From Anaerolineae bacterium (lineage in GTDB: Bacteria; Chloroflexota; Anaerolineae; Aggregatilineales; Phototrophicaceae), in the NCBI GenBank assembly GCA_022843745.1, contig JALHNB010000054.1, forward strand, positions 1-47,938: a DNA stretch of 47,938 bases, read 5' to 3'. A model generated the notes under the pieces. It was not told the DNA's origin. It worked only from the letters and a program-made list of their open reading frames with translations, and made no database searches. Shown here piece by piece: positions 4,360-8,600 of the stretch. The position numbers and the translations under genes are program-made. The number at the start of each line of letters is the position of its first letter. Within the stretch, counting starts at the first letter, position 1.

Positions 4360-6096
4360 ATGAAACCATTCCTTGATCTCTGGCCGTATCTGAAGAGCTA
4401 TCGCCTTCACATGCTGATTGTTATTTTCAGCACACTCGTCGTAACAGCGATGAATCTGGTGAATCCCTGGCTGGTGCGCAGCCTTGTCGAGATCATCAGC
4501 GACCCGAACAGTGAGAGAGATGTGGTCATCGATGGCATTACCCGGCTGACCCTGGGGCTGATCAGTATTTTTCTTGTGCGGGCGGTGTTCCGATTTTTGA
4601 CTTCTTATATCGCCCATGTGATGGCATGGAATTTCGTCAGCGATCTGCGTGTGGCGCTCTACGGTCATTTGCAGTATCTTTCGCCGCGCTTTTATGCAGA
4701 CCGTCAAACGGGCGAATTACTCACGCGCGTTGTGAAGGATACGCAGGACATCGAGCCTGTGATCGCTCATTATATTCCCGATCTGATCGTCAATGTGCTG
4801 CTCATAGTGGGTGTCGCCGCCATCCTTTTCAGCCTGAATCCGTTTCTGGCGCTGCTGACGATGATTCCGATGCCGCTGCTGGCGATTGACGGTATGTTCT
4901 TTGGCAACAGAATGAAAAGCTGGTTTAAAGTCGCTTCGCATCGGCTGGGCGCGTTGAGCGCAGTCGTTCAGGATAACCTGACGGGTATCAAAGAGATTCA
5001 GATTTTCACGCAGGAACAGCGTGAGCACGTCCGGGTCAATGCACTTTCCAAACGCACCACAGATGATCGGCTGATTGCCTTAAAATTGCAGGCCATTTTA
5101 CAGCCGACGATTGAGCTTCTCGCAGCTAGTGGAGTCGTCATAATTGTCTGGTTTGGTGGTCATGCTGTTATCGACAGCGGCCTTAAGATTGAAGATTTGG
5201 TCGCGTTTATCCTCTATCTGAACATTTTCTATCAGCCCATTATCGCCTTGTCACAAATGAGTGAGATGTTTCATGCGGGGCTGGCTGGCGCGGAGCGTGT
5301 CAGCGAGGTCTTGAATTTAGTGCCGGATGTGCTTGATGGGGCAAAAAGTATTGACCCAGGCCGCGTAAAAGGCGAAATCGTCTTCAATAATGTCAGCTTT
5401 GATTATCAACCAGGTGCGCCGACACTGCGTAACGTCACGCTGAAGATCATGCCGGGGCAAACGCTGGCGTTGGTGGGGCCAACAGGTGCAGGCAAAACGA
5501 CCATCGCCCACCTGATCCCGCGCTTCTATGATCCGCAGCAAGGTTCGATCACGATTGATGGTATTGATGTGCGCGATATTCAGCTAAACGCGCTGCGAAG
5601 CAATATCAGCATGGTGTTGCAGGATGTATTTCTGTTCACAGGCTCCGTGCGCGACAATATCCGCTACAGCAACCCCAACGCCAGCGATGAAGAAGTGATC
5701 CGTGCCGCTAAAGCTGCCCATGCGCATGGGTTTATCGAAGCGATGAACGATGGTTATGACACGCAGATCGGCGAACGCGGCGTTCGGCTTTCGGGTGGTC
5801 AAAAGCAGCGATTGGCGATTGCCCGCGCGATCCTCAAAAATGCGCCGATTCTGATTCTGGATGAAGCGACTTCAGCGGTGGATACTGAAACCGAAGCCGA
5901 GATTCAGGAAGCGCTCACGGAATTGATGAAAAACCGCACCTCGATTGTGATCGCGCACCGTCTTTCGACCATTCGTAACGCCGATCTGATCGCCGTGATG
6001 AACGAAGGTCAGGTTGAACAGATGGGTAAGCATGATGAACTGGTAATCGGCAACGGCCTTTATGCGCGGCTGCATCAGGCGAGTGTCGCAGTTTAA
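4360..6096 (+). CDS. ABC-type exporter, fused membrane and ATPase domains
   Basis: A type I (MsbA/LmrA-like) half-transporter of 578 residues that works as a homo- or heterodimer in the cytoplasmic membrane. Residues 1-320 are the six-helix transmembrane domain with the typical coupling-helix segment around TGIKEIQIFTQEQRE. Residues 335-578 are the nucleotide-binding domain with Walker A GPTGAGKTT (about 373-381), Q-loop MVLQDVFLF, signature LSGGQKQR (about 477-484), Walker B ILILDEATSAVD (about 497-508) and switch His in VIAHRLSTI. All ATPase residues are intact. Lipid, drug or peptide are all possible substrates; the sequence does not decide. The upstream neighbours are envelope-type proteins, which gives weak support for an envelope role. 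A small hairpin (TAAGGC/GCCTTA, 6094-6110) follows the stop but has no T-tract. Confidence 0.92.
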   Translation: MKPFLDLWPYLKSYRLHMLIVIFSTLVVTAMNLVNPWLVRSLVEIISDPNSERDVVIDGITRLTLGLISIFLVRAVFRFLTSYIAHVMAWNFVSDLRVALYGHLQYLSPRFYADRQTGELLTRVVKDTQDIEPVIAHYIPDLIVNVLLIVGVAAILFSLNPFLALLTMIPMPLLAIDGMFFGNRMKSWFKVASHRLGALSAVVQDNLTGIKEIQIFTQEQREHVRVNALSKRTTDDRLIALKLQAILQPTIELLAASGVVIIVWFGGHAVIDSGLKIEDLVAFILYLNIFYQPIIALSQMSEMFHAGLAGAERVSEVLNLVPDVLDGAKSIDPGRVKGEIVFNNVSFDYQPGAPTLRNVTLKIMPGQTLALVGPTGAGKTTIAHLIPRFYDPQQGSITIDGIDVRDIQLNALRSNISMVLQDVFLFTGSVRDNIRYSNPNASDEEVIRAAKAAHAHGFIEAMNDGYDTQIGERGVRLSGGQKQRLAIARAILKNAPILILDEATSAVDTETEAEIQEALTELMKNRTSIVIAHRLSTIRNADLIAVMNEGQVEQMGKHDELVIGNGLYARLHQASVAV

Positions 6097-6167
6097 GGCT
6101 TTTGGCCTTATCAACATAATTAAAGTGGCAAATTCCCAGACACAATAATTTGAGCATTTAAAAATAC

Positions 6168-6196
6168 TTGACTCATCAGAATTTTCGTTCTATAAT
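6168..6196 (+). promoter_or_regulatory. Near-consensus sigma70-type promoter
   Basis: TTGACT at 6168-6173 and a perfect TATAAT at 6191-6196 are separated by exactly 17 bases. Predicted transcription start is near 6203-6205. A second TATAAT occurs at 6211-6216 but has no matching -35 box. No protein gene on this strand lies downstream before 8750, so the promoter most likely serves the RNA candidate described next. Confidence 0.7.
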
Positions 6197-6202
6197 TTAT
6201 TT

Positions 6203-6485
6203 GTACGCTCTATAATCATGTGAAATTGGTTTAATAGATCAGTGAGTTATCCCATTTATGTGGGTTAACTGAGAAAACTGAGAAATTCAAAGCCAATTTT
6301 GAACCTTCGTAAAGGTGCTGAGTATTTAGGGTGTACAAAACGCTTATGCTGGCGTTAGGGGAATAAAAACAGCTCTGAACATGGGGCGGTTGAAAATCCT
6401 CGTACACGGATTGTATAAATCCGCTTTACTCCTTTAGTAGCCCCTTCCGCTCCCTCATGCTAAGGCGGGGGGGCATTTTGTTTTG
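6203..6485 (+). ncRNA. Candidate structured non-coding RNA, family not recognised
   Basis: The stretch lies between a near-consensus promoter and an intrinsic terminator, is about 283 nt long and holds a series of hairpins that I can pair by hand. They are: 6245-6254/6261-6270 (10 positions, one mismatch); 6286-6291/6298-6303; 6303-6307/6312-6316 (CGTA loop, shares one base with the previous stem); 6339-6343/6352-6356; and 6407-6412/6418-6423. A longer-range helix GTGTAC 6331-6336 with GTACAC 6402-6407 would enclose the fourth hairpin. A 9-base tandem repeat (AACTGAGAA twice) lies near 6267-6284. I looked for the landmark sequences of RNase P RNA, tmRNA, SRP RNA and the TPP riboswitch and did not find them. 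An 18-codon frame (6381-6437, MGRLKILVHGLYKSALLL) has no ribosome binding site. Function unknown; RNA identity is inferred. Confidence 0.55.
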
Positions 6486-6487
6486 TT
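6440..6487 (+). terminator. Intrinsic terminator of the RNA candidate
   Basis: GCCCC (6440-6444) pairs with GGGGC (6470-6474) and CCGC (6447-6450) with GCGG (6465-6468), with a small internal loop. ATTTTGTTTTGTT follows at 6475-6487. It ends the transcript predicted from the 6168-6196 promoter. Confidence 0.65.
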
Positions 6488-6601
6488 CAACCGCCCACAG
6501 TTCAAAAGTATTTCAGTGAAGTAATACTGATTTTAACGTATTTAAATTTGAATGCAAATATTTTGACTAAATTTTTGTGTATTTTGATGGATAATCTGCA
6601 C

Positions 6602-6644
6602 AAATTTCGCCGCGACCAAACTGGTTCTTATCGCGGCGAAATTT
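6602..6644. terminator. Long perfect inverted repeat, probable bidirectional terminator
   Basis: AAATTTCGCCGCGA (6602-6615) is perfectly complementary to TCGCGGCGAAATTT (6631-6644), 14 base pairs around a 15-base loop. It lies 16 bases beyond the stop codon of the minus-strand ThuA-like gene and ends in a T-run on the plus strand. It probably terminates that gene and insulates it from the RNA locus. The stretch 6488-6601 between the two terminators is AT-rich; I see nothing else in it. Confidence 0.65.
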
Positions 6645-6659
6645 TTCAATCGCATCGTA

Positions 6660-7388
6660 CTAGCTGCGGATTGTTTCCAGCGGAACTTTCGCGTTAACAA
6701 TCGGAATTGGCTCGATAGCGTGTGGTGCCGCCCAACGTGCCGCGTTGTAGATAACCTTCAGCACTTCAGGGTTGAAATAGGTCGGAAATGTTTCGTGGCC
6801 GGGGCGGAAGTAGAAGACTTTGCCACGTCCGCGAGTCCAGCAGCAGCCGCTGCGGAAGACTTCGCCGCCTTCGAACCAGCTTACGAATACTAATTCGTCC
6901 GGTGTCGGAATATCAAAGCGCTCACCATACATTTCTTCGTGAGGCAGTTCGATATATTCGCCCAGCCCCTCGGCAATCGGATGACCTGAGTCAATGACCC
7001 AGATACGTTCCTTTTCGTTGGCTTCACGCCATTTCAGGTTGCCACTCGTTCCCATCAATTTTCTGAAAATTTTCGAGTAGTGACCGGAATGCAGCACGAT
7101 CAGACCCATGCCGTCCAGTACGCGCTTCTGCACGCGCTCGACGATTTCATCTTGGACTTCATGGTGTGCCATGTGACCCCACCATGTCAGAACATCAGTC
7201 TCTGCCAGCACCGCTTCAGTCAGGCCATGTTCCGGTTCATCCAATGTAGCGGTTTTTACGTCCAGCCCTTGCTCACGCAGGTACTTGGCGATGGGGGTGT
7301 GCATTCCCTCCGGATAAACGTCTGAGACTTCCTTGTGGGTTTTTTCGTGGCGATATTCGTGCCACACAGTCACGCGAGGTGTTGCCAT
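6660..7388 (-). CDS. ThuA-like domain protein
   Basis: 242 residues of the ThuA family, a class I glutamine-amidotransferase-like (flavodoxin-like) fold found in carbohydrate utilisation loci. Visible features are an opening strand [12 protein letters not shown], the loop [22 protein letters not shown], a central [14 protein letters not shown] where amidotransferases have their nucleophile elbow (here Ser/Gly/His rather than Cys), and the end segment [21 protein letters not shown]. The family's reaction is not established. It starts 204 bases downstream of the Gfo/Idh/MocA oxidoreductase on the same strand, a pairing common in sugar and inositol catabolism clusters, so a joint role in sugar modification is likely but inferred. 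Confidence 0.85.
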
Positions 7389-7513
7389 TGTATAACTCCT
7401 TAAAATCGGCTGTCAGCGGTGAGCTTTCAGCAATCAGCGAAACAAAACTTGATGTAAATAACTTAAGTTGATCGTCTGTCTCGCAAATAAATCGGTCATT
7501 GTGAACCGTTTTC

Positions 7514-7540
7514 GTAGGGGCGCACAGCCGTGCGCCCACA
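7514..7540. repeat. GTAGGGG-type palindromic repeat, intergenic copy
   Basis: GTAGGGG is followed by an 8-bp stem GGGCGCAC/GTGCGCCC (7518-7537) around AGCC. It shares the GTAGGGG head with the perfect palindrome found inside purL (34272-34299). It sits in the 204-base gap between the ThuA-like gene and the oxidoreductase gene and could also weaken read-through between them. Confidence 0.55.
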
Positions 7541-7592
7541 TGAACCCATTTCCAGCTTATTTATGAGACTATCCAATCAACATGCGATTCAA

Positions 7593-8600
7593 TTAAACGG
7601 CTACAGGTTGCCCGTTTTTAGCGGCGGAGGCTTGAATGGCATCCCAGAGACGCGCCATACGCAGACCCACTTCTGGCGGGCAGGGATTTTCCTGTTCGCC
7701 CGCGCGGACACGCAGGAATTGTTGCCACGTCCCCATCGAAGGCGGCACGTCAACAGGCTTTAACTCGGTTTCGCCCTTCATCTGAGCTTCGAGATAGCCA
7801 CCCCAGACACCTGTCCGCAGCATACCGTTGGTGCAGAGAACGCGAATATCCGTCCCTGTAACGCCGGACTCGCCCATACCGTTGAGCGTGACCAGCCCGC
7901 CGGATTTCAGTTTGCCGATGACGACACCGTTAATATCAACAGCGCGACCCCGATTGTCGATCCATGCGGCGACTTCGGTGAATTCTTCGCCAGCCAGATC
8001 AACGACAGTGTTGAGCATATGTGCGCCGGTATCGAATAAATAACCGCCGCCCGAAATTGGTGGGTCTTGCCGCCATGTGCCAGCGGTCAATGCCGCCCAG
8101 GTTTGCCACACCGCAGCGTTGATGCCGAGCATTTCACCCATTTCGCCGGAGCGCAGCATCTTGACGGCTGTGCGAACCTGGGGAGACATACTGCCGTTAA
8201 ACGCAACGACGACGAGTTTGCCAGTCTTGTTGCGAACATCGATCAGGCTGTTGGCTTCGGCGGCATTCATGACCATTGGTTTTTCAACCAGCACATCCAA
8301 TCCGGCCTGGAGCGCGGCGGCAGCTTGGTCGTGATGCTGGGCGTGTGGCGTGATGATAAAAGCCACATCGACATCACCAATATGGTCGGTGAGAAGGGCT
8401 TCCAGATCGGGTTCGTTCGGTGGGGGTTGGAGTCCGGCTTCGGTGAACATCGCGGCGGCTTTTTCGTAAGCGGCTGGCGAAGGTTCGCAAATCCAGGCGA
8501 TTTGAGTAGTATCGGTTTGCTTGAGCATTCCCTGAAGGTGATGACGTGCCATACCGCCAGAACCGATCAAGGCGACGCGGGTAACTTTTGAGGTTGCCAT
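7593..8600 (-). CDS. Gfo/Idh/MocA family NAD(P)-dependent oxidoreductase
   Basis: 335 residues. The N-terminal Rossmann fold begins [13 protein letters not shown] (dinucleotide-binding loop at residues 12-19). The family's catalytic lysine motif EKPM is at residues 106-109, and the segment [21 protein letters not shown] corresponds to the conserved GGG..D.G.H motif of the substrate domain. Members oxidise or reduce sugars, inositols or biliverdin with a nicotinamide cofactor; the substrate cannot be told from sequence. The start at 8600 ([10 protein letters not shown]) directly precedes the first strand. The ThuA-like gene follows on the same strand. Confidence 0.9.

Follow-up and report, generated by a model that had tools for sequence, protein, structure and literature searches.

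A candidate free-standing small RNA with a sibling copy and a putative Shine-Dalgarno-pairing linker in an Anaerolineae bacterium

The small RNA GcvB, whose family is one of those in Rfam, pairs through a GU-rich region and counts dppA and oppA among its targets. In enteric bacteria, it regulates genes for amino-acid and peptide uptake (PMC3879156). According to the cited passages, the AbcR siblings regulate ABC-transporter mRNAs via two motifs, CUCCCA and GUUCCC, the second of which lies between two hairpins (PMC5461406, PMC4211561). The csRNAs of Streptococcus, as the cited portion describes them, carry anti-Shine-Dalgarno sequences that are unpaired between stem-loops; these RNAs are 51–202 nt long, occur in several copies per genome, are encoded in intergenic regions by a promoter followed by a terminator, are controlled by CiaR (TTTAAG repeats), and have an anti-start CAU in 53 of 61 cases (PMC3091779). 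Here, we describe a locus that, if our reading is right, would work like AbcR, the csRNAs, or GcvB, and in which the sequence hallmarks of AbcR and of the csRNAs were not found.

The window, a stretch of 47,938 nucleotides, is contig 54 of a 7.96-Mb genome (G000), the sole representative of its genus in the comparison set. The candidate occupies a 563-nt intergenic stretch between an upstream ABC transporter gene (positions 4360–6096, plus strand; PF00664, PF00005) and a converging ThuA-family gene (6660–7388, minus strand; PF06283). The longest open reading frame wholly inside this stretch has 58 aa, lies on the minus strand, and lacks a Pfam match, in agreement with the initial annotation that no normal protein gene fits here. 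Near the far end of the stretch, a perfect 14-bp inverted repeat (AAATTTCGCCGCGA/TCGCGGCGAAATTT; 6602–6644) probably terminates transcription of the ThuA gene and could serve in both directions.

The previously proposed promoter on the plus strand at 6168–6196, TTGACT and TATAAT separated by 17 nt, held up well. It has 11 of the 12 consensus letters and ranks first among five sigma70-like sites in 5000–8000; when the 563-nt stretch was dinucleotide-shuffled 1000 times, eight of the shuffles contained an equally good same-strand site. By eye, we saw no TTTAAG repeat at 6168–6196, which is a difference from the csRNA promoters as the cited portion presents them. Transcription would start near 6203, about 7 nt past the -10 box, and stop at a T-rich tract, giving a predicted RNA of 6203–6484 (plus strand).

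The predicted fold of this region is consistent with a structured RNA, as had been claimed. The predicted folding energy of 6203–6487 is -90.7 kcal/mol, whereas shuffles average -72.05 (z = -3.89), and none of 200 shuffles folded as well. Taken by parts, the signal lies in 6203–6336 (z = -5.0) and 6385–6496 (z = -3.8), and 6337–6384 (z = -1.0) and 6423–6484, which holds the conserved motif and the terminator hairpin (z = -0.9), score closer to their shuffles. The 5' domain (6203–6336, plus strand; 0 of 200 shuffles as good) is closed by a predicted 10-bp helix, 6203–6212/6327–6336, and is specific to G000; the corresponding stretch of Anaerolineae bacterium isolate MAG_05 (JAIOHN01; G023), which belongs to the same family and another genus, scores z = +0.24, and the domain is not seen there. 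This closing helix bears on a long-range pairing of GTGTAC (6331–6336) with GTACAC (6402–6407) in the initial annotation: both sequences are present, but the predicted fold does not prefer their pairing and instead joins GTGTAC to the 5' end (GTACGC).

Downstream, a CGGATT/AATCCG hairpin is predicted directly before the motif (6407–6423, plus strand), with GTGGA/TCCAC as its equivalent at the same place in MAG_05. After the motif comes the GC-rich intrinsic terminator that had been recognized from the start, a hairpin at 6440–6474 followed by the T-rich tract ATTTTGTTTTG at 6475–6485 (both plus strand). An automatic terminator scan did not report this hairpin because its loop of 12 exceeds the 8 that the scan allows.

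The candidate had been described as free of the landmarks of RNase P, tmRNA, SRP, and known riboswitches, and searches with Rfam (4227 families) bear this out, with 0 matches in the window at gathering score. A search of 6100–6660 gave nine chance-like matches (E 0.15–10), all far below gathering, and the other three copies described below (L065–L067) gave 0 matches above gathering score. The 6S RNA family (RF00013) was unmatched at the candidate site, and the 6S RNA of G000 is located elsewhere (G000:C7:44853–45025, 62.8 bits); likewise, tmRNA (RF00023) was absent from the window and present at G000:C35:22564–22952 (174.8 bits). The RNase P families RF00010 and RF00011 were unmatched at the site up to E 10. 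Because no RNase P RNA was recovered elsewhere in G000 either (RF00010, 101 of 112 candidates scored; RF00011, 43 of 111), the exclusion of RNase P rests on the search at the candidate site. Of the 21 genomes searched with RF00011, 18 have a match below the cut-off, and the RNase P RNA of this family is probably of a divergent type. The candidate also does not match the Chloroflexi-1 RNA, for which the cited passage gives Chloroflexus aggregans and an Rfam accession (PMC2864571). The lack of an Rfam match likewise separates it from GcvB, with which, as far as the cited passage describes that RNA, the likeness is in the peptide-uptake targets that we propose here.

By blastn against 61 relatives (E up to 10), no full-length homologue of the RNA was found. 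The only match below 0.001 besides the window itself was a 39-nt piece (6423–6461) that recurs on contig 30 of the same genome (E = 5.6e-5). The same 3' piece also sits between the ABC and ThuA genes of MAG_05, where it reached a blastn E of 0.34 and was recognized by position. This gene arrangement recurs in MAG_05 only, among 29 other ThuA loci viewed with 1500-nt flanks, and the two ABC transporters are 74% identical. The homologue search proposed in the initial annotation thus yielded an orthologue at the equivalent site in a second genus and no full-length counterpart.

A motif pattern with at most one mismatch occurs at six places in 4 of 98 family genomes. Four of the six are followed by a GC hairpin and a T-tract, namely the window locus, G000:C30:6724–6761, G023:C315, and G023:C281; the others are a gene's ribosome-binding site (RBS; G008) and a place without a hairpin (G061). 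In the order, 154 genomes were searched for the exact pattern, which occurred in two of them, at these same four places. The copies at G000:C30 and G023:C281 are orthologous, each between genes for an M24 and an S9 peptidase; the S9 assignment comes from a match to the reading frame in G000. A third genome with M24/S9 neighbors among 30 loci (G063) lacks the piece. A search of genome_contigs returned 27 stretches, including the two MAG_05 copies; the remaining 25 belong to diverse taxa, chiefly in other phyla and in one case Dehalococcoidia, and have no comparable hairpin and T-tract on inspection. We also set aside 19 viral stretches as unrelated, seven of them near-identical, with the reverse complement in the RBS-like form AAAGGAGTAAAGTACAATG and a hairpin further downstream, and an 18-nt match at G000:C2:274492–274509 that falls inside a 425-codon open frame.

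These sequence comparisons place the conservation in a 3' module (6384–6496; 113 nt in the window aligned to 95 nt in MAG_05) around a 14-nt linker and not in the whole 283 nt. The initial annotation had treated the whole RNA as a unit; a free-standing structured RNA remains the best reading of it, and conservation is limited to the module. The linker CTTTACTCCTTTAG (6424–6437, plus strand; CUUUACUCCUUUAG as RNA) is identical in all four copies. In each, it is followed by C or T and then A, by a GC hairpin whose sequence varies, and by a T-rich stretch.

The module is enclosed by a long-range helix that the initial annotation had missed, in which the 5' arm GGGCGGTTGAA (6384–6394) pairs with the 3' arm TTCAACCGCCC (6486–6496), both on the plus strand. 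The earlier limits of 6168–6487 therefore stand at the promoter and fall short at the 3' side, since this shared helix ends at 6496. The helix comprises 11 Watson–Crick base pairs in the window and 13 in MAG_05, and a Watson–Crick helix this long arose in 0 of 500 shuffles of either sequence; with G-U pairs allowed, equal length was reached in 67 of 500 (window) and 7 of 500 (MAG_05). Between the window and MAG_05, three of the 11 pairs are changed on both sides, eight are the same, and none is broken, a count that rests on two full orthologues. The copies at G000:C30 and G023:C281 lack the enclosing helix. The MAG_05 orthologue of the window copy (L067) has two more hairpins, CAGGT/ACCTG and TCATCA/TGATGA, past the enclosing helix.

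Because the 3' arm is located after the T-tract, the helix requires a transcript that continues past the tract. A simple terminated RNA leaves this partly downstream helix unexplained, and a helix spanning a terminator is an oddity in itself; it is also not among the features that the cited passages describe for AbcR. The enclosing helix may have a role in the action of the RNA. One elaborate version strikes us as improbable: a new Anaerolineae family of sibling RNAs for the control of peptide uptake, with linker and terminator wrapped together in a long helix formed only on read-through and with two 3' ends of the RNA that differ in use.

The same arms resemble short inverted ends, as would be expected if a repeat or small mobile element had been copied to two places before the genera split and had left this piece behind, and its absence from G063, the sole other genome with M24/S9 neighbors, would fit such an origin. 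This explanation is nonetheless highly improbable: each genome has two copies only, at orthologous places and with arms changed in step, no target-site duplication was seen by eye, no transposase lies nearby, and phage and plasmid records contain no match.

A purely local role deserves more weight, although we still regard it as decidedly unlikely. The element would then act in cis, as a terminator that insulates the ABC gene from the ThuA gene and as an attenuator of the S9 peptidase gene at the second locus, with no trans-acting RNA. The second locus is where this account draws its strength, as motif and hairpin lie there in a short gap before the S9 peptidase gene, a TATAAT follows the T-tract, and no sigma70-like site is recognizable before the motif (best, 5 and 6 of 12 letters). 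At the window locus, on the other hand, a strong promoter stands 256 nt before the motif, on a strand that leads away from any same-strand gene, and the conserved 14-nt linker and the enclosing helix would be superfluous for a plain terminator. The promoter-like sequence upstream of the MAG_05 copy (TTGACT, 17 nt, TATGTT) has 9 of 12 letters, a score reached by 75 of 500 shuffles. We favor a free-standing, structured regulatory RNA that is served by a promoter and a terminator of its own, because it has an orthologue in a second genus, compensatory helix changes, and no Rfam match. From the sequence, the locus is likely to be a genuine small RNA gene, and one that has a sibling.

The linker motif is the complement of the Shine-Dalgarno sequence UAAAGGAG plus a spacer. 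Searching both genomes with 13 letters and at most one mismatch gave 15 places, four of which are the elements. For seven of the 11 others, an open frame longer than 40 codons begins 3–17 nt further on, and the genes so preceded are of several kinds. In MAG_05, two of seven further places (genome-wide, at most one mismatch) are the RBSs of genes for peptide-transporter solute-binding proteins (SBP_bac_5), with AAAGGAGTAAAGtATG. We surveyed 60 of 68 SBP_bac_5 rows (34 of 36 in G000, 26 of 32 in MAG_05; the remainder were gene pieces or unfetched). Contiguous complementarity extends over 12 nt at G023:C161 and G023:C249 and over 11 nt at G000:C16 (RBS, AAGGAGTAAAGcATG); the RBS sequence of the matching SBP genes is AAGGAGTAAAG. 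Two SBP genes on G000:C14 have 10 and 9 contiguous nt, and an SBP gene on G000:C9 comes close to a match, with one G-U pair and the lowest energy, -16.1. The proteins from G000:C16 and G023:C249 are reciprocal best matches among those compared and are 58% identical. For the four copies, duplexes with these SBP RBSs are predicted at -15.4 to -23.0 kcal/mol.

Other readings were set aside. As a local target, ThuA has an RBS, AGGAGTTATACAATG, that pairs with two RNA pieces around a bulge (7387–7401 with 6408–6432), and the MAG_05 ThuA RBS does not keep this pairing. A duplex ranking of 37 window genes that left out accessibility was uninformative. When the opposite strand was read for a small protein with CTAAAGGAGTAAAG as its RBS, no start codon was seen, by eye, at a constant distance in the four copies.

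In the window RNA, the motif is predicted to cost 1.5 kcal/mol to open, the cheapest of 90 windows. At G000:C30 and G023:C281, six and four of 20 windows, respectively, are cheaper. The MAG_05 orthologue of the window motif is not specially open (probability unpaired 0.36, 5.3 kcal/mol, 5 of 56 windows cheaper), and with the 3' arm included, it costs 6.7 kcal/mol (29 of 61 cheaper).

We then compared the SBP genes with background. Among 34 SBP genes of G000, three have at least 9 nt, two at least 10 nt, and one at least 11 nt of complementarity, against seven, one, and none of 994 background genes in 1.2 Mb (Fisher 0.003, 0.003, and 0.033); background genes were scanned over a region two letters shorter than that used for the SBPs, the SBPs were left in, and RBS and start calls are heuristic. 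In MAG_05, two of 221 genes sampled from 17 contigs, picked mostly for carrying SBP genes, reach at least 9 nt, and both are SBPs with 12 nt. Motif-like sequences as such are not enriched (15 matches, compared with 31 when the motif was reversed as a control). When the letters flanking ACTCCTT were shuffled, the 10-nt SBP counts were equaled in 64 of 400 draws for G000, 93 of 400 for MAG_05, and 50 of 400 for both. A stricter count (three SBPs with at least 11 nt) was equaled in 9 of 400 draws, and those displayed all retain CTTT. The SBP lead itself arose from the motif's matches, so only the G000 orthologue was a prediction that was then borne out, and shared RBS ancestry could be the source of its match. 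Given these controls, the sequence link between the motif and peptide-transporter genes is suggestive, not proven.

The 50 of 400 shuffled-flank draws, together with the varied genes behind the seven RBS-positioned near-matches, are also what would be expected if the RNA were real and its motif bound a protein or the ribosome, imitating the 16S rRNA 3' end, and not particular mRNAs. The SBP matches would then be coincidental, because strong RBSs all look alike. We consider such a site possible but unlikely, as the match runs past the Shine-Dalgarno core into the spacer in apparent orthologues of both genomes, and a length of 11 nt is reached by none of the 994 background genes.

Since the conserved stretch is complementary to the RBSs of peptide-uptake genes, the RNA may turn those genes down. 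In the antisense mechanism that we propose, two sibling copies in G000 (the window locus and G000:C30:6724–6761) would act in trans. The linker CUUUACUCCUUUAG would be kept single-stranded between two hairpins and would pair with mRNAs, foremost those for SBP_bac_5 proteins, at the Shine-Dalgarno sequence and the spacer; pairing would block ribosome binding and thus repress translation. We give this mechanism an even chance, and the presence of the element in only two genomes counts against it.

As far as the cited passages describe them, AbcR1 and AbcR2 of Rhizobiales resemble the candidate in having two siblings per genome, ABC-transporter binding-protein targets (proposed here), and one pairing motif that is single-stranded between two hairpins. 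They differ in that the M1 and M2 motifs, CUCCCA and GUUCCC, are missing from the linker, the phylum is another, and the candidate has no Rfam match. Compared with the csRNAs as the cited portion presents them, the window copy is predicted to share an anti-Shine-Dalgarno sequence unpaired between two stem-loops and then a terminator; in the MAG_05 copy, prediction leaves the motif unpaired chiefly in folds that contain the enclosing helix. No anti-start CAU adjoins the candidate's linker, in contrast to the csRNAs.

If true, our reading would provide a specific regulator that acts by base pairing and has named targets, in a phylum for which a limited literature search returned no small-RNA study. 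It would also add another independent case in which anti-Shine-Dalgarno sibling RNAs control nutrient-binding proteins.
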